DNA from: Candidatus Methylomirabilota bacterium
GTDB lineage: Bacteria > Methylomirabilota > Methylomirabilia > Methylomirabilales > Methylomirabilaceae
Direction of reading: 5' to 3'
DNA: 64,000 nucleotides
Assembly (NCBI GenBank): GCA_003104975.1
Contig: PQAM01000018.1
Span: forward strand, 1-64,000
Shown: piece by piece, positions 30,311-59,281 of the stretch
How positions within the stretch are numbered: position 1 is the stretch's first letter
How the letters are laid out: each line of letters starts with the position of its first letter
Notes under the pieces: model-generated
What the model was told of the DNA's origin: nothing
Databases searched by the model: none
What the model saw: the letters and a program-made list of their open reading frames with translations, nothing else
Position numbers and translations under genes: made by a program

Positions 30311-30766
30311 ATGAGTGCACGGGGTGCTCTGAGTCCGGCGCCCAGCGTTGAGCGGCGCATTCTTTCCATCCGCGGTCAACGCGTGATGCTCGATGCTGAT
30401 CTGGCAGCCCTTTACGGGGTATCAACGCGGGTCCTCAACCAGGCGGTGAAACGGAACCCGGAACGCCTCCCCGAGGATTTCATGTTCCGTCTGACGGGAG
30501 CGGAGAAGGCAGAGGTGATCACAAACTGTGATCACCTCCGACCACTTAAGTTCTCCCCCGCTCTCCCCTATGCCTTTACCGAGCACGGGGCCATCATGCT
30601 GGCGAGCGTCCTCAATACACCAATCGCGGTTCAGGCCAGCGTGCAGGTCGTCCGGGCCTTCGTTCGGCTTCGGGAAATGCTGGGTAAACGATCGGCTTAC
30701 CGGTGTCTTGATGTAACAGCAGCCGACACTCAACGTAGGCTGATAGTGCAGATGGGATATGGATAA
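30311..30766 (+). CDS. ORF6N-domain protein, C-terminally truncated
   Basis: A 151-residue product from ATG 30311. Residues 14-120 match the ORF6N domain (SVERRILSIRGQRVMLDADL, LYGVSTRVLNQAVKRN, YAFTEHGAIMLASVLNTP), but homology ends at FVRLREML; the following residues (GKRSAYRCLDV...) are unrelated and the usual DKPRRSIGFRVEE end is absent. The reading frame then overlaps the start of cas3 by 8 bases. This marks the left edge of the CRISPR-Cas block. The palindrome 30512-30538 reads ITNCDHL here, in a different frame from most other copies. Confidence 0.7.
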   Translation: MSARGALSPAPSVERRILSIRGQRVMLDADLAALYGVSTRVLNQAVKRNPERLPEDFMFRLTGAEKAEVITNCDHLRPLKFSPALPYAFTEHGAIMLASVLNTPIAVQASVQVVRAFVRLREMLGKRSAYRCLDVTAADTQRRLIVQMGYG

Positions 30767-33437
30767 AGTATTGACAAGGCTTTGGGCGAAAACTTCCACG
30801 GATGGTGATGGTCGGTGGCATCCCCTTATCCTCCACATGTTGGATGTGGCCGCCAGCGCAGATGCCATCTTAGCGCGTGAACCCCAAGCCACTCGTGAAA
30901 GAATGGCGGCAATCCTTGGGCTGGGCTGGGAGGATGCCCGCCCGTGGTTGTTGCTCGTAGTGGCTTGCCATGACTTGGGAAAGGCTTGCCCTGGGTTTCA
31001 GGCTAAGTGGCCTGAACTGCTCGCTTCAACGGGACTGCGTCTGCCACGAAGTCCGAATACCAATATCCACCATGCGTTTGTGAGCCAGATTGCCCTGGCA
31101 GCATGGTTGCAAGAACGGGGATGGCCAGATGAATTGGCGGAGTTGGTAGCCGATGCAGTGGGGTGTCATCACGGAAGTCGGGCATCAGAAAAGGAAAAAG
31201 AAAAAGCTGATGCGGAAATATATGTCGGAGGGGGGGATCGACTCGAAGCAGTGCGGACAGGCTGGACTCAGGCCCGCCGTGACCTGTTAGAGGCTTTGCT
31301 GGAGGTTTTCAAGCCCAACACAATTCTCAGCAAGCAGACACTTTCTGGCCCTGACTTCATGTTGCTGTCTGGACTGACAAGCTTTGCCGACTGGATCGGC
31401 TCGGACGAAGACTGGTTCCCCTTCGGAAGCCCCGAAGACTGCAGAGATTTGGAAGCGTGGTTTCAAAAACGCAGAACCTGTGCTGACCAGGCTATGAGTG
31501 CAATCGGGTGGGAACCGAGAACCCCGCTGACCAAAGAATCAAAGTCTTTCACGGATGTCTTTGGCTTTGCGCCGCGCCCATTGCAACAGGCTGTTGACGA
31601 TGCACTCACCGAGTTGAAAAACCCCGCCATTCTCCTGCTAGAAGCGCCCATGGGTGAGGGCAAGACCGAGGCAGCATTCTTCGCTCATCTGGAATTACAG
31701 CGGAGTTTTGGGCATCGCGGTCTGTATGTAGCCCTGCCAACTAAGGCCACGGGCAATGCCATGTTCAAGCGAACCCTAAAATTCTTGAGCGATCAAGGGA
31801 TGAATCGAAGGCTTGATCTACAGCTTGTGCATAGTGGTGTGCTACTGAACGACACATTTCAGGAGCTGAAAGTATCAGGCATATACGATTCCGAGAAGGG
31901 AGGCGAAGTCCGTGCCGGAGAATGGTTCACGAACAAGAAACGGGCGCTACTCTCTGAATACGGAGTGGGAACGGTGGATCAGGCCCTTCTGCCCATTCTG
32001 CCGGTGCGACACAACTTCGTTCGCCTGTGGGGCCTTGCGAATCGCGTGGTCGTCTTCGACGAGATCCACGCCTATGATGCCTATACGGGCACGCTTCTGG
32101 TTCACCTGCTGCGATGGCTCCTGACGTTGGGGTCATCGGTGGTGCTTCTCTCCGCAACCCTGCCTCCATCGATTCGCCGCAAGTTGGCGGAGATAGTTGG
32201 TTCCGCGCTACCGGAACCTGAGAAGCCCTACCCCCGCTTATCTATCTTCTGTCCTGGTGAGAAACCACGCCAGGAACATTTTCAAGCTGACCCTCAACGC
32301 CGTTTGACGGTACGGCTACAGGGACTTCAGACAGATTTGCCAGCCATGCTTGCGGCGTTGGAGGAGGGTCTTGCCGATGGTGGCATGGGGCTGGCACTCG
32401 TCAATACAGTCCAGCGCGCTCAAGACCTATACCAACTCTTCCCCGAAGGCGAGCGGCTGGAGCGTGAAGGCCAGTGTATCGGCAAACGCCTGTCCGATGG
32501 CACGGAAGTGCTTCTCTTTCATGCTCGCTTCCCAGCAGACCGACGGCAGAGACACGAGGATCAGGCCTTGGAGACTTTTGGGGAATCCACGAATCGAACC
32601 GGTCGCAAAATCCTCATCGCCACCCAAGTGGCGGAACAGAGCCTGGACTTGGATTTCGATTTGATCGCAACCGACCTCGCACCTATCGACCTCGTGCTGC
32701 AACGTGCGGGGCGCTTGTGGCGGCATGCGAGATCATCCAGACCCGTTTCCGAACCGAAGCTACTGGTTGCGGGATTGGCTGGCGAAGAACCACCCTCGTT
32801 CGGAAAACCTCTCTGGTGGGGATCGGTGTACCGTGAGGACATTGTGTTACGAACCTGGATTCTGCTTCGAGAAGGAGAGAGACAGACTTTGATACTTCCA
32901 GATGAGATCGACACCTTGGTACAAGAGGTCTATGAAGAGCAGGTGGTCGTGCCAGAGTTTCTAGAAGAGCGGATGAACAAGGCAGTGCTTGCCGAGGGAG
33001 AAGCCATATCTCATCGTCAGCGAGCAAACCAGGCAATCATCGGGTTGCCCGACGACGCATCCTGGAACGACCCAGCGAGGTTCGTGCTTTATGACGAAGA
33101 CGAACCCGGCGTCCATCGAACCCTCATGGCCCAAACCAGGATTGGCGAAGACTCGGCTGTGGCGATCCCGTTATGGTTGGAAGACGGATTCGATTCTCAG
33201 AAGACGCCAAACTTCGCAATGTCCAAAGCGTGGTTTCTTCGGGGCGTCAGTCTTTCGCAGAAGTCGGTAGTCAAGAAACTGAAGGCGTCGGGGGTACCAG
33301 AGGGCTGGAAGGCATCGCCGCTCTTGCGCAATTGCTTTCCCCTAGTACTAGAAACCGATGGTCGTTGGACAGTAGACGCGTCGGTGCGACTTGATGATGA
33401 CTTGGGATTGGTGTACGAGACGAAGGAGCCCAAATGA
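30759..33437 (+). CDS. cas3: CRISPR-associated nuclease/helicase Cas3 (type I-E)
   Basis: The 892-residue effector that is recruited by Cascade and degrades target DNA. An N-terminal HD nuclease has the metal motif ACHDLGKA and an upstream HPLILHMLDVA; the superfamily 2 helicase shows motif I APMGEGKTEAAF, the DExH box FDEIHAYD, motif III LSATLPP and motif VI QRAGRLWRH. First gene of a tightly packed cas operon; its stop overlaps the next start (ATGA at 33434). The upstream ribosome site is weak. Confidence 0.95.
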   Translation: MDKVLTRLWAKTSTDGDGRWHPLILHMLDVAASADAILAREPQATRERMAAILGLGWEDARPWLLLVVACHDLGKACPGFQAKWPELLASTGLRLPRSPNTNIHHAFVSQIALAAWLQERGWPDELAELVADAVGCHHGSRASEKEKEKADAEIYVGGGDRLEAVRTGWTQARRDLLEALLEVFKPNTILSKQTLSGPDFMLLSGLTSFADWIGSDEDWFPFGSPEDCRDLEAWFQKRRTCADQAMSAIGWEPRTPLTKESKSFTDVFGFAPRPLQQAVDDALTELKNPAILLLEAPMGEGKTEAAFFAHLELQRSFGHRGLYVALPTKATGNAMFKRTLKFLSDQGMNRRLDLQLVHSGVLLNDTFQELKVSGIYDSEKGGEVRAGEWFTNKKRALLSEYGVGTVDQALLPILPVRHNFVRLWGLANRVVVFDEIHAYDAYTGTLLVHLLRWLLTLGSSVVLLSATLPPSIRRKLAEIVGSALPEPEKPYPRLSIFCPGEKPRQEHFQADPQRRLTVRLQGLQTDLPAMLAALEEGLADGGMGLALVNTVQRAQDLYQLFPEGERLEREGQCIGKRLSDGTEVLLFHARFPADRRQRHEDQALETFGESTNRTGRKILIATQVAEQSLDLDFDLIATDLAPIDLVLQRAGRLWRHARSSRPVSEPKLLVAGLAGEEPPSFGKPLWWGSVYREDIVLRTWILLREGERQTLILPDEIDTLVQEVYEEQVVVPEFLEERMNKAVLAEGEAISHRQRANQAIIGLPDDASWNDPARFVLYDEDEPGVHRTLMAQTRIGEDSAVAIPLWLEDGFDSQKTPNFAMSKAWFLRGVSLSQKSVVKKLKASGVPEGWKASPLLRNCFPLVLETDGRWTVDASVRLDDDLGLVYETKEPK

Positions 33438-34966
33438 GCCAATTTAACTTGATCGATGAGAAATGGATACCCGTGCGATTCTCCGATGGAAGCCGCGACG
33501 AACTGGGTATTCGTGACACCCTCCTGCGATCAAAAGAGATCGCGGCCATCGAGGACCCATCACCCTTGGTGGTGGTGGCCCTGCACCGCTTTCTGCTCGC
33601 ACTTCTGTACCGTGCTCTGGAAGGGCCGACCGACATCGAGCAGGCCAAGGCTCTGTTTAGGGACGGGCTGCCAAGCGAAAAAATCACGGCCTACTTGGAA
33701 AAGTGGCAGGATCGGTTCTGGTTGTTTGATGAGGGGTATCCCTTTTATCAAGTTTCTGCTTACGAGCCGCAAGAAAAGAAAGAATGGAAGTCATGGCCAG
33801 CAATTGCGGCTGAACATAACGCCAACAACGCAAAAGTACTTTTTGATCACATCGAGATTGCCGCCGCTGGACCGACTCCGTCGCGGATGGCAGCTCGGTG
33901 GCTTGTCGCTTGCCAGACATTCGCTCTTGGCGGAGGGAACAGCGATTTCGTCTACACGAAGACTGCGCCGTCGGCGACTGCTGCCATGGTTCTACCCTTG
34001 GGGATACACCTCCACGATACGCTGCTGGTCTCTCTTGTGCCCGAGAACAAGGAAGTGCTTGCAGATGATCGGCCCATCTGGGAGCAAGAACCGGTCCCAC
34101 TTGCGTCGCTAAAAAATGGCATCGCAAGACCGGCAATGGGTGTAGTGGATTTATATACATGGTTGGCGCGGTCGATCACATTTCATCTTGATGGAAATGG
34201 TGAGACGCTGAGTGAACTGGCATTTGCCTCGGGAGTCGAATGTTCTTCAGAAGGCTACATTGACCCTATGCTTGGCTACAGGATTGACGACAAGTGGGGG
34301 AGGCTACCCATTCAATTTCGTCATCGGGGGCTTTGGCGAGACTTCGACTCCTTACTGCCCGACGATTCACATCTGGCACCCAAGGTAATCGAGCATGCGT
34401 CGGTATTGAGCCGGTCGAACCGGGACCGAATCCCACGATCGGTGTTAGTCCTCGGTCAGGCGAATAACAAGGCAAAGATCGAGTATTGGCGCATGGAGCG
34501 GTTTGCACTGCCAGAGGCGCTGACTGGGGACCGATTCATCCGAACGGAAATCCGGCAACTTCTTAAAGAAGCAGAGGACGCACAAAAATCTCTCTGGTTG
34601 GCCTGTCGCTCATACGCACGAGATATTCTAAGTCGAGGGGAACGAGAGCCTGACAAAAAAGATATTAAGGCATTTGTGGAACAGATGCCGGTGAATTCCT
34701 GGTACTGGTCCACCCTTGAATCTCGCTTTCACGACATCTTGCGCGAGTACACCCTCGAACGCGATTTCGAGGACATCCGCTGTCAGTGGTTAGAGTCCGT
34801 CAGGGGTACCCTCAAGAAAGCATGGGGCCAGCACCGCGCCTCGGTTTCGATGGGCGATGCTTGGGCGATCCGTGCCCTCGTGAAAGCCGAAGGACCGGTG
34901 TTACGCAAGCTGAAGGAACTGAACGACGAGATTGCCAAACTTGAACCGCGGAAGGAGGTCCTGTGA
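33434..34966 (+). CDS. casA: Type I-E Cascade large subunit Cse1/CasA (Cas8e)
   Basis: A 510-residue large subunit responsible for PAM recognition and Cas3 recruitment. The N-terminus FNLIDEKWIPVRFSDGS and LGIRDTLLRSKEI are the usual Cse1 opening; a central region with LLALLYRALEGP, GLPSEKITAYLEKWQDRFWLF and PFYQV also fits, and the C-terminal four-helix bundle is present. It lies between cas3 and cse2 with overlapping starts and stops. Confidence 0.93.
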   Translation: MSQFNLIDEKWIPVRFSDGSRDELGIRDTLLRSKEIAAIEDPSPLVVVALHRFLLALLYRALEGPTDIEQAKALFRDGLPSEKITAYLEKWQDRFWLFDEGYPFYQVSAYEPQEKKEWKSWPAIAAEHNANNAKVLFDHIEIAAAGPTPSRMAARWLVACQTFALGGGNSDFVYTKTAPSATAAMVLPLGIHLHDTLLVSLVPENKEVLADDRPIWEQEPVPLASLKNGIARPAMGVVDLYTWLARSITFHLDGNGETLSELAFASGVECSSEGYIDPMLGYRIDDKWGRLPIQFRHRGLWRDFDSLLPDDSHLAPKVIEHASVLSRSNRDRIPRSVLVLGQANNKAKIEYWRMERFALPEALTGDRFIRTEIRQLLKEAEDAQKSLWLACRSYARDILSRGEREPDKKDIKAFVEQMPVNSWYWSTLESRFHDILREYTLERDFEDIRCQWLESVRGTLKKAWGQHRASVSMGDAWAIRALVKAEGPVLRKLKELNDEIAKLEPRKEVL

Positions 34967-35481
34967 GTACATTCATCGAATGGCTGGAAAACCTAAACGA
35001 AAAAGACACCAAGGTGCGAGCGGTATTGAGGCGTAGTCTTGCTTTTGATCCGGGAGCATTTGTGCCCGCTTATCCCTATGTTGAACCCTTCCTGAAAGGC
35101 GAGGACAACTCCTGGCGGAGGGGAATGCTCTACCTTGTGGCCGGCCTTTGGGCTGCACACTGGTTGCAGGGCCGTCAGGGCGCACCGATGCCCATCGGGA
35201 GGGCCTGTGCGGCATACCAGGCGGCAAGCAACTCCGCCAGCACCGAACGCCGCTTCATCACGCTGCTTGATTCGGACGGTGATCAGTTGCCCCATAGGCT
35301 GCGTCAGATAATTGGGCTGCTCAAGGAATACGCCATCGACTTTGAAGCCCTGCTGCAAGGGCTGTTGTATTGGAACGACGACCGCAAACGCACTCAAAAC
35401 TCCTGGGCGCGCGATTTCTACCGGCATTTGAATACCGAAACAGAAGAACAACTCACGACCCAAGAGGAGGTATCGCTGTGA
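34963..35481 (+). CDS. casB: Type I-E Cascade small subunit Cse2/CasB
   Basis: A 172-residue helical small subunit starting at GTG 34963, overlapping the casA stop. Features of the family: VRAVLRRSLAFDPG near the start, YLVAGLWAAHW, and RLRQIIGLLKEYAIDFEALL with YWNDDRK. Two copies line the Cascade belly and stabilise the R-loop. Confidence 0.9.
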   Translation: MSTFIEWLENLNEKDTKVRAVLRRSLAFDPGAFVPAYPYVEPFLKGEDNSWRRGMLYLVAGLWAAHWLQGRQGAPMPIGRACAAYQAASNSASTERRFITLLDSDGDQLPHRLRQIIGLLKEYAIDFEALLQGLLYWNDDRKRTQNSWARDFYRHLNTETEEQLTTQEEVSL

Positions 35482-36644
35482 AGACGCTCATCGAGATTCA
35501 CGCCCTGCAGAACTTTGCCCCGTCGAACCTGAACCGTGATGACACCGGTGCGCCGAAGGACGCCCTTTTTGGTGGGACCCGCCGCGCGCGTGTGTCCAGC
35601 CAGTGTCTCAAGCGGGCGGTGCGCCAGTACTTCAAGGGATTAGTCGAGAACGGGTCGCTGGCGTCGGACGATGTCGCCCTCCGCACCAAACGCGTCCTGG
35701 ATGCCATAACAAAATCCTTAGTCGAAAAGGGGCGCGCTAAAGTGGAAGCGACCGAGAAGGTACGCCAAGCACTGGCGGCCATAGAGCTTTCCGTCAAGGA
35801 GGATGGAAAGAGCGAATACCTCTTATTTTTGGGACAGCACGAAATCGCCAGCATAGCCGACATCATTGATGAGAAGTGGAATTCCATTACTGCAGCCGAT
35901 ACTCACCCTACAGAGGGAAAGAAGGCAGGCAAGGCGAAGAAGCAAGCCGCTCAGATCGCTGATCCAGAACTGAAGAAGGCGCTCGACAAAGTGTTCAACG
36001 GCGGCAAGGCTGTGGATGTCGCGCTCTTCGGACGCATGCTGGCCGATATGCCCGAGAAAAACCAGAACGCAGCATGTCAGGTGGCCCATGCCATCTCGAC
36101 TCACTCCGTCGAGCGTGAGTTTGATTTCTATACTGCGGTGGACGACCTGAAGCCAGAAGACACCGCTGGCGCCGACATGATGGGTACGGTCGAGTTCAAT
36201 GCCGCCTGTTTCTATCGCTACGCCGTGGTGGATTGGGAAACGCTGGTGGCAAATCTCCAAGGGGACAGGGAGCTGGCAGCCAGGGGACTACGGGCCTTTC
36301 TGGAAGGATTTATTGTCGCCGAACCTACCGGCAAGCAAAACACTTTTGCGGCTCATAATCCGCCCGAGTTCGTGGCTGTGTCAGTGCGTCGCAACACCGC
36401 ACCCCACAATCTTGCCAACGCCTATGAAACAGCTATTCGCGCAAAGAAGGATGAGTCGCTCACCAGAAGGTCGGCAGAGGAGCTTGCCAAGAAAGCAAAG
36501 GCTCTGCGTGCTGTATACGGTGGTGAGGAGAAAACCTTTGTCATTAATCTGGCCGAGGCCACACTTGATGGATACGGTAGTCCTATGACTTCCCTGAAGG
36601 ATCTCCTCGACAATAGCTTAAAAGCCGTAGCCGTAAAGGAGTAA
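35478..36644 (+). CDS. casC: Type I-E Cascade backbone subunit Cas7e/CasC
   Basis: A 388-residue backbone subunit (six copies wrap the crRNA). The GTG at 35478, overlapping the cse2 stop (GTGA) with AAGAGGAGG upstream, gives the conserved start KTLIEIHALQNFAPSNLNRD; a longer frame runs back to 35370 but lies in cse2. DALFGGTRRARVSSQCLKRA is a signature. Includes the thumb region and the C-terminal GYGSPMTSLKDLLD. Confidence 0.94.
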   Translation: MKTLIEIHALQNFAPSNLNRDDTGAPKDALFGGTRRARVSSQCLKRAVRQYFKGLVENGSLASDDVALRTKRVLDAITKSLVEKGRAKVEATEKVRQALAAIELSVKEDGKSEYLLFLGQHEIASIADIIDEKWNSITAADTHPTEGKKAGKAKKQAAQIADPELKKALDKVFNGGKAVDVALFGRMLADMPEKNQNAACQVAHAISTHSVEREFDFYTAVDDLKPEDTAGADMMGTVEFNAACFYRYAVVDWETLVANLQGDRELAARGLRAFLEGFIVAEPTGKQNTFAAHNPPEFVAVSVRRNTAPHNLANAYETAIRAKKDESLTRRSAEELAKKAKALRAVYGGEEKTFVINLAEATLDGYGSPMTSLKDLLDNSLKAVAVKE

Positions 36645-36647
36645 GGT

Positions 36648-37325
36648 ATGCCTACCTTACTGCTATGTCTGGTGGGTCCCATGCAGTCGTGGGGTACCAC
36701 TAGCCGCTTTGATCAACGCGATACCGGGAAGGAGCCCAGCAAGTCCGGTGTACTCGGATTGCTGGCTGCTGCGCTGGGAATTGACCGCGAGAATTGGACC
36801 GAACTGGAACCGCTCACGCGCTTAGTAATGGGGGTCCGTCATGATCGTCCGGGTGTCCCCAGGCGCGACTATCAAACAGCGGGCTGTGCAGCATCCGATA
36901 CCATCATTAAGGCGGATGGAACTCAGTCCAAAGATGGGGTCGTTTCCCAGCGTTTCTATCTTGCCGATGCAGCTTTTCTAGTGGGACTGGAATGCGAGGA
37001 CCGATCTCTTCTGGAAAGGATTCACGCCGCTCTGCGCGATCCCGTCTGGCCCTTGGCGCTGGGCCGCAAATCCTACGTACCCTCCGAACCGATCTGGATT
37101 GAGAACGGTGTGCAGGATGTTCCATTGCGAGACGCCTTGACACGATGGCCGTGGATCTCCACACGGCGAAAATGGGAAGAGTCCCCCGAGAAGCTATTAG
37201 CCTCCTTCGAGTCCAAAGACGGCTCAGGCGTACTCAAAATGGACCAGCCGTTGTCGTCGTTTGCCGAACGCCGATTCGGGGCGCGTTACATGCGCTCGGA
37301 GTGGATTCCCTCCCTCATGAGGTAA
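36648..37325 (+). CDS. casD: Type I-E Cascade subunit Cas5e/CasD
   Basis: A 225-residue RAMP-fold protein that caps the 5' handle of crRNA. Start PTLLLCLVGPMQSWGTTSRFDQRDTGKEPSKSGVLGLLAAALG-type motif: key parts GPMQSWG, RFDQRDTGKEPSKSGV and the later YYL-like QRFYLADAAFLVGLE and LGRKSYVPSEPIW. Three bases after casC. Confidence 0.93.
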   Translation: MPTLLLCLVGPMQSWGTTSRFDQRDTGKEPSKSGVLGLLAAALGIDRENWTELEPLTRLVMGVRHDRPGVPRRDYQTAGCAASDTIIKADGTQSKDGVVSQRFYLADAAFLVGLECEDRSLLERIHAALRDPVWPLALGRKSYVPSEPIWIENGVQDVPLRDALTRWPWISTRRKWEESPEKLLASFESKDGSGVLKMDQPLSSFAERRFGARYMRSEWIPSLMR

Positions 37326-37328
37326 CCC

Positions 37329-38003
37329 ATGTTTCTGCATAGAATCCATCTTGATCCGCGTTGTAGGGAGGCCAGACGAGACCTGTCCGATCCCTACCAG
37401 CTTCATGCCACATTGTGTCGGGCCTTCTGCCCGCCGGACCGTGAATGCCCGGAAGGTGAAATCTTGTGGAGGCTCGAGCCGGAGACCGATCCCGATGGTT
37501 GTCCCCGGATTCTTGTTCAGAGCCGAACGATCTCGGACTGGACAGGAATCGGCGTGAAGGGATGGCTGGCGAAGGCGGATCCGCCCATCGATCTGAAGAG
37601 CCGCCTCAAACTTGATTCACTCAAGATCGGTCAGCGCTTTCGTTTCAGGCTGCGGGCCAATCCTTGCGTCACCCGTAATAGCAAGCGACTAGGATTGCTA
37701 CGACTAGAGGAACAAGAACAATGGATTGCGCGAAAAGGACACCTGCACGGATTTTCGCTTCCACAACTGCCTTTCTTTGATCTCACGGAAGCACAACGGG
37801 AGCGGATTGATGTACGGGTTTCCCAAGAACAGATGCTCCGGGGTACACAGCATGCTGGAAATAGTATTCGGATTTTTTCGGTACTCTACGACGGGGTTCT
37901 CTTGGTAAACGAACCAGCCAAATTCAGGAATACCCTGCAAACAGGCATCGGGCACGGCAAGGTTTTGGGATTGGGGCTCCTATCGGTGGGACCAATAGTA
38001 TGA
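37329..38003 (+). CDS. casE: crRNA endonuclease Cas6e/CasE
   Basis: A 224-residue RNase that cuts pre-crRNA within each repeat and keeps the 3' hairpin. N-terminal HRIHLDP and the likely catalytic histidine in PYQLHATLCRAF; a glycine-rich loop (TGIGHGKVLGLGLLSVG) near the C-terminus and SVLYDGVLLV are characteristic. Its substrate is the hairpin repeat of the adjacent array (CCCCACGCGCGTGGGG stem). Follows casD by three bases. Confidence 0.93.
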   Translation: MFLHRIHLDPRCREARRDLSDPYQLHATLCRAFCPPDRECPEGEILWRLEPETDPDGCPRILVQSRTISDWTGIGVKGWLAKADPPIDLKSRLKLDSLKIGQRFRFRLRANPCVTRNSKRLGLLRLEEQEQWIARKGHLHGFSLPQLPFFDLTEAQRERIDVRVSQEQMLRGTQHAGNSIRIFSVLYDGVLLVNEPAKFRNTLQTGIGHGKVLGLGLLSVGPIV

Positions 38004-51546: not shown

Positions 51547-51575
51547 TTGACAGGCCCACAACAAGGGTATATATA
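51547..51575 (+). promoter_or_regulatory. Predicted promoter of the arsR-hyf-like operon
   Basis: A perfect TTGACA (51547-51552), 17-base spacer and TATATA (51570-51575). The start of transcription should fall near 51582, next to an inverted repeat that suits the ArsR-family regulator. Confidence 0.65.
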
Positions 51576-51586
51576 TATAGTAATAT

Positions 51587-51598
51587 TTGCAGATGCAA
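51587..51598 (+). promoter_or_regulatory. Candidate ArsR-type operator
   Basis: TTGCA-GA-TGCAA within ATATTTGCAGATGCAATAAT; the same half-site repeats in ATATGCAAT at 51601. ArsR/SmtB repressors bind such AT-rich 12-2-type dyads. The site overlaps the expected transcription start. Confidence 0.55.
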
Positions 51599-51629
51599 TA
51601 ATATGCAATTACGTGACGATCGGACAACC

Positions 51630-51980
51630 ATGAGACAGCAACTGAGCAACTTCAAGGCGGATTTCTTTAAGGCGTTGGCGCATCCGCTGAGGATCTCGAT
51701 CCTGGACGCGTTGCGGACCGGAGAGTTCACGGTGAACGAGATCAGCCGGCAATTCTCGATCGAGCCGGCCAACGCCTCGCAGCAGCTTGCGGTTCTCCGC
51801 AATAAGGGGATTGTGGTGGCCCGTAAGGAGGGGTCGAGCGTCTACTATTCCGTCGGCGACCCGTCGCTCTTCAAGCTGCTTGATGCCGCACGAGAAATCT
51901 TCAACAACCATCTGATCGGCGTCCGCGGGATGCTTGAGGAGATCCGACTCGAGCAGACGCAGACACCCAAGCGCCGCTGA
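51630..51980 (+). CDS. ArsR-family transcriptional regulator
   Basis: A 116-residue winged-helix repressor. The start at 51630 is preferred (CGGA upstream), 51603 is possible. ALAHPLRISILDALRTGEFT, EISRQFSIEPANASQQLAVL and VVARKEGSSVYYSVGDPSLF form the HTH and wing. It lacks the ELCVCDL metal site of ArsR, so it responds to some other signal. It precedes the hydrogenase-4-like genes and probably controls them and itself through the adjacent dyad. Confidence 0.88.
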   Translation: MRQQLSNFKADFFKALAHPLRISILDALRTGEFTVNEISRQFSIEPANASQQLAVLRNKGIVVARKEGSSVYYSVGDPSLFKLLDAAREIFNNHLIGVRGMLEEIRLEQTQTPKRR

Positions 51981-52030
51981 GCCGGACACGGACATCGGCG
52001 CAGTGAGGTCATCGGAGAACGCGGGTTGAG

Positions 52031-52549
52031 ATGCTGGCACTCGTGAGAAAGATCTGGACAACCCCGGTGGTGACGGAGCCGCTGGGACGGACCGATGACG
52101 ACGGACAGATCGAGACCGTAGCGCGGCAGATTAACGAGCGCGCGCGGCGCCTCTTCGGACGCTCGCTTCACATCCGCCAGGTGGATGCGGGCTCGTGCAA
52201 CGGATGCGAACTGGAAATCGGCGCATTGAATAATCCCTACTATGACCTGGAGCGCTTTGGGATGCATTTCGTCGCCTCGCCGCGCCACGCGGATTGTCTG
52301 CTGGTCACGGGGCCGGTGACGCGTAATATGGCCGATCCCCTCAAGCGCACCTATGACGCTACCCCGGATCCGAAGATCGTCGTCGCCGTCGGCGACTGCG
52401 CCAGGGACTGCGGGATCTTTGCGGGCGGCTATGGGGTCGTCGGACCGGTATCGGCTGTGGTGCCGGTCGATGTCGTGGTCGGCGGCTGCCCGCCGCCCCC
52501 GTCGCACATCCTGGCCGGGATCCTGACGGCGCTCGAAAGCCGAGGATAG
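52031..52549 (+). CDS. hyfI: Hydrogenase-4-like small subunit (HyfI/NuoB family)
   Basis: A 172-residue NuoB-type subunit that holds the proximal [4Fe-4S] cluster. All ligands are present: DAGSCNGCELEI (two), VGDCARDCG (third) and GGCPPPP (fourth). The N-terminal 50 residues are membrane-distal. It comes before hyfB here, whereas E. coli hyf has it near the end. First gene of the complex after arsR (50-base gap). Confidence 0.88.
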   Translation: MLALVRKIWTTPVVTEPLGRTDDDGQIETVARQINERARRLFGRSLHIRQVDAGSCNGCELEIGALNNPYYDLERFGMHFVASPRHADCLLVTGPVTRNMADPLKRTYDATPDPKIVVAVGDCARDCGIFAGGYGVVGPVSAVVPVDVVVGGCPPPPSHILAGILTALESRG

Positions 52550-52593
52550 GCGCGTCGGTATGGTCGATCTACAGATGGCTCGATAGTGTGACG

Positions 52594-54627
52594 ATGGCGC
52601 CTGGTGAGACGGTGACCGTGAACCTGCTGCTCCTCGCCCTCGGCGGCTTCGGCGCCGGCGCAGCGGGGGCGCTCCTGGCAGCGCGCGAGCCGGCTATCTC
52701 GCGATGGGTGGGGCATGCGGGCGCGCTGATCGGCGCCATGGCTGCCTGTGCATTGGGCGTGGCGGGCCTGGCCGGCGGGACGCTGAACGTCGTGATCCCG
52801 GCGCTGCTGCCCATTGGAGGGTTCTCGCTCGGGATGGATCGCCTCAGCGCATTCTTTGTCCTGGTCATTGCGACGGCGGCGATCCCGTCCGCCGTCTACG
52901 CCGTCGCCTATACCCACAGCTACGAGGGTCGATCGTCGCTGGCGGGGATGGGGCTCGGCTTGAACACCTTTCTCGCAGCAATGGTGCTCGTCGTGCTGGC
53001 CCGCAACGCACTGACCTTCCTGGTCATGTGGGAGGCGATGTCGCTGGCATCCTATTTCCTCGTCATGACCGAGGCGGAGAACCGAGAGACGGAGCAGGCG
53101 GGCTGGCTCTATCTGGTCACGACGCATGCGGGCTTTGCCTGTCTGCTGATCGGGTTCCTCCTGATGGCGCACGGAACCGGGACGATGGTCCTTGGCGAAT
53201 GGCGCGCCGCATCGACGGCAGTGGACGGTCCGACGCGTGACGCGATCTTCATCCTGCTCGCGCTCGGCTTTGGGACCAAGGCGGGCGTGGTCCCGCTGCA
53301 TATCTGGCTCCCAAAGGCCCACCCGGCAGCCCCCAGTCACGTCTCTGCCCTGATGTCGGGGGTGATGATTAAACTCGGCGTCTACGGACTGATTCGGATA
53401 GGGTTCGACTGGCTCGGGGTCGGCGCGTCCTGGTGGGGCGGGACGGTTTTGGTCGTTGCGGCCCTGAGCGCGGTACTCGGTGTGCTGTATGCGTTGGTCG
53501 AACAGGATCTCAAGGGCCTGCTCGCCTATTCCAGTGTCGAAAATATCGGCATTATCCTGATCGGGGTGGGGGCCGGGATGCTGTTTCGAAGCTATCGCCT
53601 CGATGCCCTGGCCTCGCTGGCGCTGATCGCGGGCCTGTATCACGCGCTCAATCACGCTATATTCAAGCCCCTCCTCTTCATGGGCGCCGGCGCCGTGATC
53701 CATGCGACCGGCACCAGAAACATGGAGGAGATGGGCGGGCTCATCAAGCGGATGCCGCAGACCGCCGCCTGTTTTCTCGCCGGATCGATCGCCATTGCGG
53801 CGCTGCCGCCGTTCAACGGCTTTGTCAGCGAGTGGCTGATGTTTCAGTCGCTCCTGCTCAGTTTCGAGATTCCGATCACCGGGGTCAATCTGCTCTTTGC
53901 GTTGTCGATCGCCGCACTTGCGCTGACCGGCGGGCTGGCGGCCGCCTGTTTCGTCAAGGCCTTCGGCATCTCGTTTCTGGCGCTCCCGCGCAGCCCGGCG
54001 GCCGAACAGGCGCATGAGGCGCCGCGGATGATGCGCGCGCCGATGGCGCTCGCAGCCATGGCCTGTCTTGCGCTGGGGGTGGCGCCGGTCGGTCTGTTGG
54101 GGCTGCTCAATGCGACGGTGGCCGACCTGATCGGAACCCCTGCGGATATGCGCTTCAACTGGAACGGCATTGTCGCCAATGATGCGTTCGCGATCGTATC
54201 GCCGCTGTGGATTGCCGTCGCGCTGGTCTCGTTGCCGGCGCTGGTCCTGATGACGATGCGCATCATCGGGTCAGGCGGGGGGTCGCGCACATACGAGACC
54301 TGGGGGTGCGGGCGCGCGCTGCAGACCGCACGCTTTGAATATACCGGGGCGGCGTTCGCCAATCCCTTCAAGCGGGTCTTCGCGCCCCTGTACCGTCCGG
54401 TGCGGGAGCTGGACATTCGGTTTCACCCGGAATCCCGAATGTTCGTTGAGACGATCACCTACCGCGATCAGATACGCTCGATCTTCGAAGAGGCGCTGTA
54501 TGGCCCGATCGTCAGGCTGGTGCAGCGCGGCGCGCAGCGGGCGCGCATCGTGCAGTCGGGCAACGTCCATCTCTACCTGGTGTATATCTTCGCGGCGCTG
54601 GTGGCGCTGCTGGCATTGGCGGGGTAG
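52594..54627 (+). CDS. hyfB: Hydrogenase-4-like membrane subunit B (antiporter-like)
   Basis: A 677-residue Mrp/NuoL-type proton-translocating subunit with about 16 membrane helices. The core includes NALTFLVMWEAMSLASYFLV (with the conserved E), GFGTKAGVVPLHIWLPKAHP (K and H), HVSALMSGVMIKLGVYGLIR, and HALNHAIFKPLLFMGAGAV. A C-terminal soluble tail (GLGRALQTARFEYTG-type; here CGRALQTARFEYTGAAFANP) follows. GTG 52588 is an alternative start. Confidence 0.9.
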   Translation: MAPGETVTVNLLLLALGGFGAGAAGALLAAREPAISRWVGHAGALIGAMAACALGVAGLAGGTLNVVIPALLPIGGFSLGMDRLSAFFVLVIATAAIPSAVYAVAYTHSYEGRSSLAGMGLGLNTFLAAMVLVVLARNALTFLVMWEAMSLASYFLVMTEAENRETEQAGWLYLVTTHAGFACLLIGFLLMAHGTGTMVLGEWRAASTAVDGPTRDAIFILLALGFGTKAGVVPLHIWLPKAHPAAPSHVSALMSGVMIKLGVYGLIRIGFDWLGVGASWWGGTVLVVAALSAVLGVLYALVEQDLKGLLAYSSVENIGIILIGVGAGMLFRSYRLDALASLALIAGLYHALNHAIFKPLLFMGAGAVIHATGTRNMEEMGGLIKRMPQTAACFLAGSIAIAALPPFNGFVSEWLMFQSLLLSFEIPITGVNLLFALSIAALALTGGLAAACFVKAFGISFLALPRSPAAEQAHEAPRMMRAPMALAAMACLALGVAPVGLLGLLNATVADLIGTPADMRFNWNGIVANDAFAIVSPLWIAVALVSLPALVLMTMRIIGSGGGSRTYETWGCGRALQTARFEYTGAAFANPFKRVFAPLYRPVRELDIRFHPESRMFVETITYRDQIRSIFEEALYGPIVRLVQRGAQRARIVQSGNVHLYLVYIFAALVALLALAG

Positions 54628-54634
54628 GCGACCG

Positions 54635-55579
54635 ATGCCGACACAGATCCTGATCGAGGCGATGCAGTTGCTGATCGTGGGCCTCGGCGCGCCGCTGCTG
54701 ACGGGATTGGTTCGGCGGGTGAAGGCGCGGCTGCAAGGGCGGCGCGGGGCCGGTGTGCTGCAGCCGTATGCCGATCTGCGGAAGCTGTTGGCGAAAGAGC
54801 CGGTCGTATCCGAGACGACCTCGTGGCTCTTCCGGTTTACGCCGTACCTGCTGGCAGCGACGATGCTGCTCTCGGCGCTGCTCGTTCCGCTGCTCACCAC
54901 CCAGACGCCGCTCCGTTTTCTCGGCAATATCATCGTACTGATGTACCTCTTCCTGCTCGGCACCTTCTTTCTGGCGCTGGCGGGGCTGGACGCCGGCAGT
55001 GCGTTCGGCGGGATGGGGTCCAGTCGTGAGACGGCCGTTGCCGCCCTGGCCGAGCCGACCGTGATGATCGCGATCTTCGCAATGGCCTTTCGTACCGGGA
55101 GTACGAGTCTTGATGAGATTGTCCGACGCGGCGCGTCCGATTCGCTGCTGCTGCTGACCCCCGGGCACCTGCTCGCGTTTCTGGCCTTCTTTATCGTCGC
55201 GCTCGCAGAGACCGGCCGATTGCCGGTGGACAATCCCGCGACGCACCTGGAGCTGACGATGATTCATGAGGCGATGGTGCTGGAGTATTCGGGGCGGTAT
55301 CTGATGCTGATCGAATGGGCCGCCGGCATGAAACTGCTCATCTTCCTGGCGCTGTTGTCGAATCTGTTCTTTCCGTGGGGGATTGCCTCGACCGTGACGC
55401 CGCCCGCGCTCGCTGTCGCCTGTATCGCGCTGATCGTCAAGATCGGCGCGCTGGCGATCGGGATCGCGGCGCTCGAAACCTCAGTGGCCAAGTTGCGGCT
55501 GTTCCGGTTGCCGGCGTTGTTGAGCAGCTCGTTTGCGCTGGCCCTGCTGGCCGTCATCTCGTTTTTGTTCGTGAAATAG
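54635..55579 (+). CDS. hyfC: Hydrogenase-4-like membrane subunit C (NuoH family)
   Basis: A 314-residue integral membrane subunit, start at ATG 54635. GLGAPLLTGLVRRVKARLQG and GRRGAGVLQPYADLRKLLAKE are NuoH/HycD signatures; ETGRLPVDNPATHLELTMIHEAMVLEYSGR is the conserved quinone-module loop (visible as LPVDNPATHLELTMIHE). It links the peripheral arm to the membrane arm. Confidence 0.92.
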   Translation: MPTQILIEAMQLLIVGLGAPLLTGLVRRVKARLQGRRGAGVLQPYADLRKLLAKEPVVSETTSWLFRFTPYLLAATMLLSALLVPLLTTQTPLRFLGNIIVLMYLFLLGTFFLALAGLDAGSAFGGMGSSRETAVAALAEPTVMIAIFAMAFRTGSTSLDEIVRRGASDSLLLLTPGHLLAFLAFFIVALAETGRLPVDNPATHLELTMIHEAMVLEYSGRYLMLIEWAAGMKLLIFLALLSNLFFPWGIASTVTPPALAVACIALIVKIGALAIGIAALETSVAKLRLFRLPALLSSSFALALLAVISFLFVK

Positions 55580-56248
55580 GTGGGGTCGGTGGCGTCCGAA
55601 CTCTTTCCGAAGCTGATTACGTTGCTCGCCTTCACGACCCTGGGGACGGCCTTTCTGCTGATTGTGGGCCGGGACCTGGCGGGTCAGGTCCGGCTCCTCG
55701 CGGCGCAATCGCTGACCCTGGCGATTGCCGCGGCGGTTGTGGCCGCATTCACGAGCAGTGCGGAGTTGGCCGGCGTGGCCGCGGTGCTCGGATTCTTGAA
55801 GGTATTCGTCATCCCGCGTGTCCTGAATCGCGCGGTCACAAAGATCGGCTTGCAGCCGGCCGCGCTGCCGTATCTGGGGACCCCGGCGACACTGGTCGTG
55901 TGCGGCGGCCTGGTCACGATCGCATTCTATGTGATGGCCCCCGTCGCCGCGGCCAACCCGCTTCCCACGGCAGAGGCGATTCCGATCGCCTTCGCCGGCG
56001 TATTTATCGGCTTTTTTGTGATGGTGAACCGCCGGCGCGCCCTCACGCAGATCCTCGGCTTTCTGATGCTCGAGAACAGCATCTTTCTGCTCGTACTGCT
56101 GACCACGTATGGGGTCCCGTTCATTGTGGAGATGGGGGTCTTTCTGGACGTGTTGGTAGCGGTCTTGATTATGGAGGTCTTCGTCTATCGCATCAAAGAG
56201 AACTTTGATTCGATTGAAGTCGACCGGCTGGGGAGACTGCGGGGATGA
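55580..56248 (+). CDS. hyfE: Hydrogenase-4-like membrane subunit E
   Basis: A 222-residue membrane protein (219 if the second GTG, 55589, is used). About seven hydrophobic helices; FLKVFVIPRVLNRAV, MVNRRRALTQILGFLMLENS and VFVYRIKENFDSIEVDRLGRL match HyfE (NuoK-like at the C-terminal part). It overlaps hyfF by ATGA. Confidence 0.85.
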   Translation: MGSVASELFPKLITLLAFTTLGTAFLLIVGRDLAGQVRLLAAQSLTLAIAAAVVAAFTSSAELAGVAAVLGFLKVFVIPRVLNRAVTKIGLQPAALPYLGTPATLVVCGGLVTIAFYVMAPVAAANPLPTAEAIPIAFAGVFIGFFVMVNRRRALTQILGFLMLENSIFLLVLLTTYGVPFIVEMGVFLDVLVAVLIMEVFVYRIKENFDSIEVDRLGRLRG

Positions 56249-57705
56249 GCCTGATCGCGCTGCTGCTGATACCGCTGATCGGATCGGCCCTGATCATGCT
56301 GGTGCGTTCGCGGGTGTGGTTCGAGTCCGTCCACACCGTCGCCGCCCTTGTCGGACTGGCCGCCGGTCTTATGACGGCGGCGCGGGTGTGGCAGGGCGAG
56401 GTACCGACGGCGATCGGCGGGCTGCTTCGCGCCGACGGGCTCTCAGCGTTGATGGTCGTGGTGATCACCCTGCTGGGGGCGATCGCCGCCCTGTACGGGC
56501 TCGGATACATCCGGACCGAATATGACGATACCCGCCTGTCCAGCGTACGCAGTTTCTTCGGGCTCTTTCACCTGTTTATCTTTACCATGCTGCTGGCGGT
56601 GACGACGGATAACCTCGGTATCATGTGGGTGGCTATTGAAGGGACGACCCTGGCGACCGCCTTTCTGGTCAACCTGCACGATACGCCCCGGTCGTTGGAG
56701 GCGGCCTATAAGTACCTCATCCTCTCCTCGGTGGGGATCGCCCTCGCCTTCATCGGCACGGCGCTGTTGTATTACGCCGGCGCATCCCGCGCAGGCGAGA
56801 TTGCGGTGAACTGGACCTCGCTGAAGGACGCAGCGTCATCGCTGAATCCCCAGGTGGTCCGACTGGCGTTCGCCTTTATCGTCGTCGGTTACGGGACCAA
56901 GGCGGGCCTGGCGCCGATGCATACGTGGCTACCGGACGCCCACAGTGAGGCGCCAGCCCCGATCAGCGCGCTGATGTCGGGCGTCCTGCTTAATGTGGGG
57001 CTGTACGCCCTGATGCGTTTCAAGGTGGTGGTGGATATCGCGGTCGGCGCGCACTTTGCCGGCCGCTGGCTGTTGGGCATCGGGTTGCTGTCGCTGGCGG
57101 TCGCGGCGGTTTTTCTGATCGTCCCGCGCAACTACAAACGGATGCTGGCCTATTCGAGCGTCGAACATATCGGCGTCATCTGCATGGGATTGGGATTCGG
57201 CGGTTACTGGGGCGTCCTGGGCGCACTTCTGCACGTCATCAATCATGCGCTGTCGAAGTCATTGCTGTTTCTCTTGTCGGGCAACATCCTGCTGAAATAT
57301 CAGACGACCGATATCCGACGGGTACGTGGGCTGTTACGGGCCTCGCCCCTGACGGCCTGCGCGTTTGCCGCCGGCACGTTTGCGCTGCTGGGCCTCCCTC
57401 CATTCGGGCCGTTTATGAGCGAGTTTCTGATCTTTCGCGCAGGCGTCGAGAACGGCTCCGTATGGGTGGTAATCCTGGGGGTGGCGCTGCTCGCGGTCAT
57501 ATTTGCCGGCATGCTCGGCAGCGTTAATCGGATGCTGTACGGTGAGCCCCCGGAGAAGATGGAGCCCGGCGATGTACTGACGTGGTCGTTGGCGCCGCTG
57601 GTCGTCAACTTTGCCTTATTGCTTGTGCTCGGACTGACCTTTCCGGATACGATCGCTGCGGCCCTGGAACAGGCGCTCCGGGTGCTCGGGGTGTCTCATG
57701 CGTGA
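56245..57705 (+). CDS. hyfF: Hydrogenase-4-like membrane subunit F (NuoN/antiporter-like)
   Basis: A 486-residue proton-channel subunit: NLGIMWVAIEGTTLATAFLV (conserved E), YGTKAGLAPMHTWLPDAHSEA, and HVINHALSKSLLFLLSGNIL. This second antiporter-like subunit is what distinguishes Hyf-type from Hyc-type complexes. Its start overlaps the hyfE stop and its end overlaps hyfG by 8 bases. Confidence 0.92.
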   Translation: MSLIALLLIPLIGSALIMLVRSRVWFESVHTVAALVGLAAGLMTAARVWQGEVPTAIGGLLRADGLSALMVVVITLLGAIAALYGLGYIRTEYDDTRLSSVRSFFGLFHLFIFTMLLAVTTDNLGIMWVAIEGTTLATAFLVNLHDTPRSLEAAYKYLILSSVGIALAFIGTALLYYAGASRAGEIAVNWTSLKDAASSLNPQVVRLAFAFIVVGYGTKAGLAPMHTWLPDAHSEAPAPISALMSGVLLNVGLYALMRFKVVVDIAVGAHFAGRWLLGIGLLSLAVAAVFLIVPRNYKRMLAYSSVEHIGVICMGLGFGGYWGVLGALLHVINHALSKSLLFLLSGNILLKYQTTDIRRVRGLLRASPLTACAFAAGTFALLGLPPFGPFMSEFLIFRAGVENGSVWVVILGVALLAVIFAGMLGSVNRMLYGEPPEKMEPGDVLTWSLAPLVVNFALLLVLGLTFPDTIAAALEQALRVLGVSHA

Positions 57706-59281
57706 TCTGTACGGCGTCGCCCGGCAGCTTCGCGCGACGGGCCTGACGCAGGTCGATCCGTACGCGCACCCGCCGCGGGAGGTGCGTGTCGGCATCGAGC
57801 GGGAAAGGCTGCCTGCGTTTGCCGAGTATGTGCGCGATCGGTTCGAGGCGACACCCGAACTGATCGTCGCCGAAGACACCCGAACGGAGCGTGGTGCCTT
57901 TACGCTACGCTACCTGTTTGAATTCGGGCGAGCTGATCTGTTCGTCGTGGTATCGATGGCGGTCCCGGAGGAGGATCGTCGATTCCCGTCGCTTGCCACC
58001 CGCTGGTATCTGGCCGGCCGATTTGAGCGCGAGATCCACGATCTGTTCGGTCTTATCCCGACCGGTCATCCCGATCTTCGGCGACTGCCGCTGCACCAGT
58101 TCTGGCCCGCCGCGTATCATCCCCTGCTGCAGGATGCGCCGTCGCCGCCCGTCTTCGCGGACGACGGCACGCCCTTTCCATTTCACCGCGTGGAGGGTGA
58201 GGGGATCCATGAGGTCACCGTCGGTCCGGTACACGCGGGGATTATTGAACCGGGCCACTTCCGATTCAGCGTCGAAGGGGAGACCATCGTCAATCTCGAG
58301 ACCCGACTCTATTTCGTCCACAAGGGGATCGAGCGTCTGTTTGAGTCGGTCCCGCTGAGACGCGCGGTAGAGCTGGCCGAACGGATTTCCGGCGACAGCA
58401 GCGTGGCGCACGCGCTGGCGTTCTGCCAGGCGCTTGAATCGGCGGCGGACCTGCAGATCCCGCCGCGCGCGGCCTGGCTGCGCGTCATCCTGCTGGAACT
58501 GGAACGACTTTATAATCACGTCGCGGATGTCGGCGCGATCTGCACGGATACGGGCTTTGCGGTCGCCAATGCCCACGCGATGCGGCTGCGCGAAGATCTG
58601 CTCCGCCTGAACGTCCGACTGGTCGGCCATCGCTTGCTGCGCGGGGCGCTGATGGCGGGCGGCGTCGCGTGCGACGTGACGGCCGAACAGATCGCAGACG
58701 CACGCGAGACGGTCCGACACACGGTCAGCGACTTCGACGAGGTCGTCGAGATCGCATTGCACAATAACCTGGTACTGGACCGGCTGCATGGGACGGGACG
58801 TCTGTCGACACAGACCGCGCGCGAACTACAGGTCGTCGGGCCGGCGGCGCGCGCCAGCGGTATTGATCGGGATGCCCGACGGGATCATCCCTTTGCGGCC
58901 TATGCGGACCTGCCGCCGCGCGTGCCGGTATACAGTGAGGGCGATGTCTGGGCACGACTGATGGTGCGGGTCGACGAGGCGCGAGAGGCTGCCCGTCTGA
59001 TCATGCGGGCCCTGGACGGGCTCCCTGAGGGGACGATCGCGGTACCGCTGTCGGCGCTGCCGGGCGGCGCGAGCGGGTTCGGTCTGGTTGAGGGGTGGCG
59101 CGGACCCATATGGCACTGGCTGGTCGCCGGCGAGGGCAATCGGCTGGCGCGCGTGAAGGTCAAAGACCCGTCCTTCGCCAACTGGCCGGCGCTGCATTAC
59201 GCAATTCTCAAGAACATCGTGCCCGATTTCCCGCTTGTCAATAAGAGCTTCAATCTGTCGTACGCAGGAAACGATCTGTAG
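57698..59281 (+). CDS. hyfG: Hyf/Ehr large subunit lacking the NiFe-binding cysteines
   Basis: A 527-residue NuoC-NuoD fusion. The N-terminal NuoC part has GRFEREIHDLFGLIPTGHPD (about 108-127). The NuoD/NiFe-large-subunit part starts near 160. In hydrogenase-3/4 the L1 motif is ER-CGIC; here it is ERISGDSSVAHAL (about 227), with both cysteines replaced by Ser. The C-terminal L2 motif DPCxxC is VKDPSFANWPALH (about 487). So no Ni-Fe site can form. This matches the definition of Ehr (energy-converting hydrogenase-related) complexes; the electron donor and acceptor are unknown. Confidence 0.92.
   Translation: MRDLYGVARQLRATGLTQVDPYAHPPREVRVGIERERLPAFAEYVRDRFEATPELIVAEDTRTERGAFTLRYLFEFGRADLFVVVSMAVPEEDRRFPSLATRWYLAGRFEREIHDLFGLIPTGHPDLRRLPLHQFWPAAYHPLLQDAPSPPVFADDGTPFPFHRVEGEGIHEVTVGPVHAGIIEPGHFRFSVEGETIVNLETRLYFVHKGIERLFESVPLRRAVELAERISGDSSVAHALAFCQALESAADLQIPPRAAWLRVILLELERLYNHVADVGAICTDTGFAVANAHAMRLREDLLRLNVRLVGHRLLRGALMAGGVACDVTAEQIADARETVRHTVSDFDEVVEIALHNNLVLDRLHGTGRLSTQTARELQVVGPAARASGIDRDARRDHPFAAYADLPPRVPVYSEGDVWARLMVRVDEAREAARLIMRALDGLPEGTIAVPLSALPGGASGFGLVEGWRGPIWHWLVAGEGNRLARVKVKDPSFANWPALHYAILKNIVPDFPLVNKSFNLSYAGNDL

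Follow-up and report, generated by a model that had tools for sequence, protein, structure and literature searches.

The Ehr family of hydrogenase-related complexes was reportedly named between 2005 and 2013, in work by Coppi in 2005 and Marreiros in 2013. We take its Geobacter member to be GSU0739-45, and we know of no measurement of redox-coupled ion translocation by any Ehr complex. Published accounts describe these complexes as having no Ni-Fe ligands and no known function (e.g., PMC4378227, PMC6349859). An Ehr with lost ligands and a six-gene antiporter-type cluster was described in Sulfobacillus (PMC4378227), and others in Methylacidiphilum, as ehrABCDLS (PMC6688271), and in Geobacter (PMC7894505), while coupling of ion translocation to a cytoplasmic redox reaction by Ehr is a proposal (PMC6349859). 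Here, we analyzed a stretch of 64,000 nucleotides (the window) from a Candidatus Methylomirabilota bacterium (assembly GCA_003104975.1, contig PQAM01000018.1, positions 1 to 64,000) that has an operon for such a complex at 51603-59281 on its forward strand. Judged by its sequence, the operon is a new member of the Ehr family, which itself has already been described. We propose that Ehr is a redox-linked ion-translocating complex that would serve pH/cation homeostasis, with electrons probably passing via one [4Fe-4S] cluster, rather than hydrogen metabolism, a reading to which we assign a probability of about 0.5.

The operon comprises seven closely spaced genes, and these, together with the two former Ni-Fe sites, are as follows:

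51603..51980, forward strand: ArsR-family regulator (HTH_5 / HTH_metalloreg); the conserved start is probably the ATG at 51630
52031..52549, forward strand: small subunit, HyfI/HycG/NuoB-like (Oxidored_q6; best PDB matches MbhJ and HycG)
52588..54627, forward strand: HyfB-like antiporter subunit with a GTG start (NF005086, 711 bits, above cut-off; 39.7% identity to E. coli HyfB)
54635..55579, forward strand: HyfC/HycD/NuoH-like membrane anchor (NADHdh; HycD E 2.1e-51; 32% identity to E. coli HyfC)
55580..56248, forward strand: HyfE-like membrane subunit with a GTG start (NF008556, 92.9 bits, under the cut-off of 136; 25% identity to E. coli HyfE)
56245..57705, forward strand: HyfF-like antiporter subunit (NF005044, 488 bits, under cut-off; 42.3% identity to E. 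coli HyfF)
57698..59281, forward strand: large subunit, EhrL/HyfG-like, 527 residues, with fused Complex1_30kDa and Complex1_49kDa domains in an intact open reading frame
58379..58402, forward strand: former L1 site ERISGDSS, residues 228-235, aligned to HycE DRVCGICG
59252..59269, forward strand: former L2 site NLSYAG, residues 519-524, aligned to HycE DPCYSC

The preliminary description of this DNA had called the locus an Ehr-type complex, and the comparison bears this out, as the missing L1 and L2 cysteines, and the six-gene cluster of HyfB/C/E/F-like, large, and small subunits with its antiporter-like members match published Ehr complexes. The type found in the window differs from those in that it starts with an arsR gene, continues with a small subunit that lacks a ferredoxin domain, and occurs in a genome without HypD.

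Loss of the Ni-Fe site is evident from alignment with E. coli HycE (7z0s). At L1, ERISGDS lies opposite DRVCGIC, with both cysteines now serines, and at L2, NLSYAG lies opposite DPCYSC, such that the four Ni-ligand positions are occupied by S231, S234, S521, and G524. The preliminary description was correct that the cysteines are lost at both sites, but it had placed L2 at DPSFANW (490-496), a stretch that pairs with HycE ATYANW and the PSF motifs of complex I and that true hydrogenases carry as well. The C-terminal residue, L527, faces the Arg of HycE DPCYSCTDR, presumably the position at which hydrogenase large subunits are cleaved in maturation, and therefore no C-terminal extension is left for processing.

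HypD is required for NiFe cofactor assembly, and it was not found anywhere in the 3.0 Mb host genome, which is 99.99% complete; control genomes behaved as expected. There are no maturation genes near the operon, and domain and family profile scans found no counterpart of HyfA, HyfD, or HyfH among its genes. The earlier claim that the operon has neither a HyfA/HyfH gene nor maturation genes is upheld, and the genome-wide absence of HypD is the stronger argument. Large-subunit matches at E<=1e-60 were present in 53 of 99 related genomes and HypD in 6 of the 99. Fifty of the matching genomes fall in the genus of the window and in family f7, and the other three in family f5, which is home also to true group 4 hydrogenases; HypD was detected in none of the 50 Ehr-bearing genomes outside family f5 (the host and 49 relatives). 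The window type has none of the marks of a group 4 [NiFe]-hydrogenase, namely CxxC at L1 and L2, HypD in the genome, and HyfA/HyfD/HyfH in the operon. With all four ligands replaced, nothing at the C-terminus to process, and no HypD in the host or those relatives, it is very improbable that the complex acts as a hydrogenase through an unusual metal site, even though a Chloroflexota sister branch has all four Ni ligands and Desulfotomaculum ruminis EhrL was reported with four cysteines (PMC3569383).

A search of genome contigs found 47 related loci, which, like the 53 genome matches, tells against a chance occurrence. The orthologues range over Methylomirabilota (including Rokubacteria), Acidobacteriota, Deltaproteobacteria, Latescibacterota, Chloroflexota, and Bacillota, the closest being those of Candidatus Methylomirabilis (83-86% identity), a methane-oxidizing genus to which we therefore assign the host genome. 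There were also ~100 plasmid matches, in Rhizobium, Azospirillum, Burkholderia, Cupriavidus, Rhodococcus, and others. The phylogeny called for by the preliminary description, with Hyf and Nuo large subunits, was run: Ehr split from Hyc/Hyf and Nuo with support of 1.000, and the window protein grouped with the proteins lacking Ni ligands. In a wider tree, two branches lay next to Ehr, one the four-cysteine Chloroflexota branch and the other a fluoride-linked branch with GPVR and SFGL motifs. Sampled members of the former (L149-L154, L158, L159, L161, L162, L164) keep all Ni ligands, have C-x2-C at both sites, and end in CYxC-x-D-R-stop with no C-terminal extension; HypD was undetected in 8 of the 11 genomes sampled for this branch, whose assemblies may be incomplete.

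The residues that replaced the Ni-Fe site are themselves highly conserved. Across 24 sequences with identities down to ~40%, the motifs GPVHAGIIEPGHFRF, ER-SGD, and NKSFNLSY-GNDL-stop show little or no variation. Mean consensus frequency in 37 Ehr sequences was 0.90 over the L1 and L2 segments versus 0.62 over the whole domain; among 20000 randomly drawn pairs of segments, 158 were as strongly conserved. Residues specific to Ehr include A180, I183, D233, N515, K516, N519, S521, G524, and L527, and the motifs of the remodelled pocket are GPVHAG-IIEPGHFRF, ER-SGD, and NKSFNLSYAGNDL-COOH. Among Methylomirabilis copies whose synonymous divergence (dS) was unsaturated, the ratio of nonsynonymous to synonymous divergence (dN/dS) was 0.10-0.13. 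Because the replaced motifs are near-invariant across phyla and dN/dS is ~0.1, the complex is, to judge from these patterns of substitution, not a relic. Geobacter Ehr has been suggested to be such a decaying relic, nonfunctional and under relaxed selection, and missense mutations arose in it in Geobacter during long-term electrode growth (PMC13194489). Loss of the Ni-Fe ligands could be read in the same way. However, all open reading frames are intact in many phyla, the replacement motifs persist where overall identity is ~40%, and Geobacter proteomes contain Ehr proteins (PMC7894505). For the Methylomirabilis lineage, decay appears contradicted by the selection data, and we regard it as hardly credible.

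An AlphaFold model of the large subunit (predicted local distance difference test score 82, predicted template modelling score 0.86) had its best fold match in HycE of formate hydrogenlyase (7z0s_E, template modelling score 0.85), with confidence below 50 at residues 159-208 and 510-527, which carry two of the pocket motifs. The invariant E184 aligned to E21 of Mbh, which we take to be the glutamate for proton transfer in that complex. The columns of His38 and Tyr87 of T. thermophilus Nqo4, presumably the quinone-binding residues of complex I, hold I183 and G232 in the window protein, and I183 is invariant in the 37 Ehr sequences. These replacements, and an operon with no NuoI, NuoE, NuoF, or NuoG, argue against a complex I-like quinone reductase in which another donor replaces the NADH module; the fold and arm architecture are as complex I has them and speak for such an enzyme, which we nonetheless think improbable. 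The resemblance to complex I covers homologous large, small, NuoH-like, and antiporter subunits, as well as a large subunit that ends at the former cleavage position, whereas the NADH module is missing from the operon. The host genome also encodes three NuoD-type paralogues (G000:C4:204769-217385 and C10:626258-627769), one with a stop codon within the matching stretch.

The small subunit retains the [4Fe-4S] ligands C56, C59, C123, and C153, and the membrane subunits retain residues for proton pumping, both as noted in the preliminary description. Alignment with the E. coli proteins identified E149, K231, K262, and K360 in HyfB and E132, K219, and K338 in HyfF; N250 of HyfF is Lys in many antiporter subunits, but it is Asn in E. 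coli HyfF too. Nearly all related small subunits, across phyla, have the four Fe-S cysteines. These proteins occur in two forms, a short one (the window, Pseudomonadota, Rhodococcus) and one with an N-terminal 2x[4Fe-4S] ferredoxin domain (Bacillota, many Chloroflexota). Two extra cysteines, C89 and C127, co-occur in nine small subunits of the ArsR type and may form a disulfide or provide an additional ligand. The ligand of the [4Fe-3S] cluster in Hyd-1 has C-x4-C spacing, and a role for Cys127 in an O2-tolerant cluster of that kind was dropped as the spacing here is C-x3-C.

Riboswitches lie beside the operon in several relatives. Those for cyclic diadenosine monophosphate (c-di-AMP; RF00379) were directly upstream of it in 5 of 22 Chloroflexota loci, and fluoride riboswitches (RF01734) preceded members of the GPVR/SFGL branch:

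L058:4139-4276: c-di-AMP riboswitch, 84.7 bits, between arsR and the small-subunit gene
L082:3931-4066: c-di-AMP riboswitch, 85.1 bits, between arsR and the small-subunit gene
L150:783-919, L151:2642-2779, and L149:8581-8720 (reverse strand): c-di-AMP riboswitches directly before hyfB
L112:2858-2928, L113:2971-3041, L111:2863-2933, L110:4600-4673, and L168:5224-5307: fluoride riboswitches directly before the complex of the GPVR/SFGL branch

For riboswitches at 5 of 22 loci, a rough binomial calculation gives 7e-12, although there were fewer than five independent events because the loci are related by descent. The two c-di-AMP groups (L058 and L082 versus L149, L150, and L151) belong to separate branches and differ in gene order. 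The large subunits of L058 and L082 are 74% and 71% identical to that of the window, and the c-di-AMP riboswitch at the operon is the only copy in the 9.4 Mb genome of L058; there are two in the genome of L082, three in L149, nine in L150, and four in L151. c-di-AMP riboswitches govern K+ uptake genes (kdpFABC) in Bacillus (PMC6488665). Among the papers listed by our literature searches, none reported a link between c-di-AMP riboswitches and Ehr-type operons. Formate hydrogenlyase genes behind crcB-motif RNAs were probably noticed earlier. The fluoride-linked loci include a plasmid of M. branderi (L110) and a Chloroflexota locus (L168), and several also hold crcB, inorganic diphosphatase, enolase, or DUF190 genes. 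Taken together, the c-di-AMP and fluoride riboswitch neighbours suggest that the Ehr family may help against ion and pH stress. They strengthen, and do not prove, the earlier idea that the membrane part could couple ion transport to a new reaction.

Under the redox-linked homeostasis reading, HyfB, HyfC, HyfE, and HyfF would form an ion-translocating membrane arm, as in hydrogenase-4 and complex I, and the large/small pair would be a connecting module on that arm that has lost Ni-Fe binding. A soluble low-potential donor, possibly ferredoxin in relatives with the fused ferredoxin domain, would reduce the one [4Fe-4S] cluster that the small subunit holds, and from there electrons would reach an acceptor in the remodelled pocket. 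This electron step would drive or gate movement of H+, Na+, or K+, and the physiological job would be pH or cation balance under ion or redox stress. Donor, acceptor, direction of ion flow, and role in Methylomirabilis are all parts that we infer. On a Methylovirgula plasmid (L093:1645-8207), the Ehr operon has a divergently oriented ATP synthase gene cluster as its neighbour, which we count in favour of homeostasis; the gene order of this cluster presumably resembles that of Na+-type N-ATPases.

Several points weigh against this reading. The analysis brought to light neither a donor or acceptor of electrons nor an ion that is transported. Three of the five c-di-AMP cases (L149, L150, L151) are in the branch with all four Ni ligands. 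The host genome encodes a diadenylate cyclase, but a c-di-AMP riboswitch was not found in it, and therefore a homeostasis role for Methylomirabilis is carried over from relatives. All four Fe-S cysteines are gone from the plasmid small subunits of M. branderi (L110:9848-10642) and Allomeiothermus (L094:15275-16147), where the membrane genes are still open and the operons look intact; obligatory electron flow is therefore argued against in these members. They also speak for the main rival, a non-redox ion exchanger: with no electron transfer, the HyfB/HyfF arm would act as a cation/proton antiporter (compare Mrp), and the large and small subunits would cap it in a structural or regulatory role. 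This would also suit the window type, which has no ferredoxin module, and riboswitches that indicate ion stress over metabolism. However, both cysteine-less members are long branches in the wider tree, the Fe-S cysteines are preserved in nearly all members across phyla, and a cap with no redox function would hardly be expected to gain the ferredoxin domain that many carry. We consider such an exchanger unlikely, yet a serious competitor.

Another point against homeostasis comes from Geobacter, where growth on formate raises the abundance of Ehr (PMC7894505), an observation that fits a metabolic role equally. A complex of formate dehydrogenase and Ehr, in which formate would supply the electrons for ion pumping, was proposed for Margulisbacteria and Saganbacteria (PMC6349859), and the host genome does encode FdhA. 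Against it, no fdh gene adjoins the operon in the window or in the annotated relatives examined. Because several near-complete Ehr genomes have no recognisable FdhA (at E<=1e-150, these include G039, 100% complete, G001, 99%, G050, 94%, and G037, 93%), formate dehydrogenase is not required, and its candidacy as obligatory partner is unsupported. We think formate-driven pumping improbable. The search for co-occurring redox genes that the preliminary description had recommended was also carried out: no additional redox gene was consistently linked to Ehr loci in the annotated plasmid examples or the neighbourhoods of relatives, and the Bacillota neighbourhoods had none in common past the six. 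Its statement that the redox partner is unknown still stands.

The regulator that opens the operon has orthologues preceding the operon in 12 loci. The protein has no cysteines, and its best PDB match is Rv0081 of M. tuberculosis (6jmi, E 4.8e-19). Two candidate elements precede its gene:

51547..51602, forward strand: candidate promoter TTGACA ... TATATA together with the palindrome given next, just 5' of the ArsR start
51583-51602, forward strand: imperfect AT-rich palindrome ATATTTGCAGATGCAATAAT, a possible ArsR operator

Stretches resembling the palindrome region, ATATTTGCAGATGC(A/G)ATAA, occur before arsR in L036, L037, and L048. The 'formate hydrogenlyase' locus of M. tuberculosis, Rv0081-Rv0087, has the same order (ArsR, oxidoreductase, oxidoreductase, HycD, HycP, HycQ, HycE; PMC6901956), and He 2011, as cited in PMC6901956 and PMC6177252, places it under Rv0081, MprA, and DosR. 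From the gene list and the Rv0081 match, we infer that this locus would be an Ehr of the ArsR type.

The operon can also be set beside better characterized complexes. It resembles E. coli Hyf and formate hydrogenlyase-1 in its HyfB and HyfF subunits and in having HycE as the closest solved large subunit, whereas the Ni ligands, HyfA/HyfD/HyfH, the C-terminal extension, and the maturation genes of those systems are missing from the operon. With Pyrococcus Mbs/Mbx and Mbh it shares a group 4-derived arm with antiporter subunits, and among solved structures its small subunit matches MbhJ best; unlike them, it has no separate ferredoxin-type subunit. Mbs/Mbx and Mbh also have a larger subunit set. 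The operon is flanked upstream by a QueG gene and downstream by genes for a sensor histidine kinase and a sigma-54-type response regulator. There was no riboswitch in the window, where the sole Rfam match was a tRNA. Elsewhere in the window (30759-38003), Cas3, Cse1, and CT1975-like genes form a type I-E-like CRISPR-Cas operon.

The family was named about 20 years ago and has also been described as a missing link from hydrogenases to complex I. Its hosts include methanotrophs, soil Acidobacteriota, Chloroflexota, rhizobia, acetogens, and apparently the tubercle bacillus. What is new here is the corrected L2 site, the lack of HypD across the whole genome, the conservation of the replacement pocket and, most importantly, the association with c-di-AMP. 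A broader and more tentative possibility is that Ehr complexes are hydrogenase-derived ion-homeostasis machines with a new conserved pocket and expression tuned to ion stress (c-di-AMP, fluoride, an Rv0081-like ArsR), some members of which, lacking Fe-S cysteines, would not transfer electrons at all. The replacement pocket offers exact residues for mutation, and the riboswitch contexts provide a cheap hypothesis, that the family may answer to ion and pH stress rather than to hydrogen.

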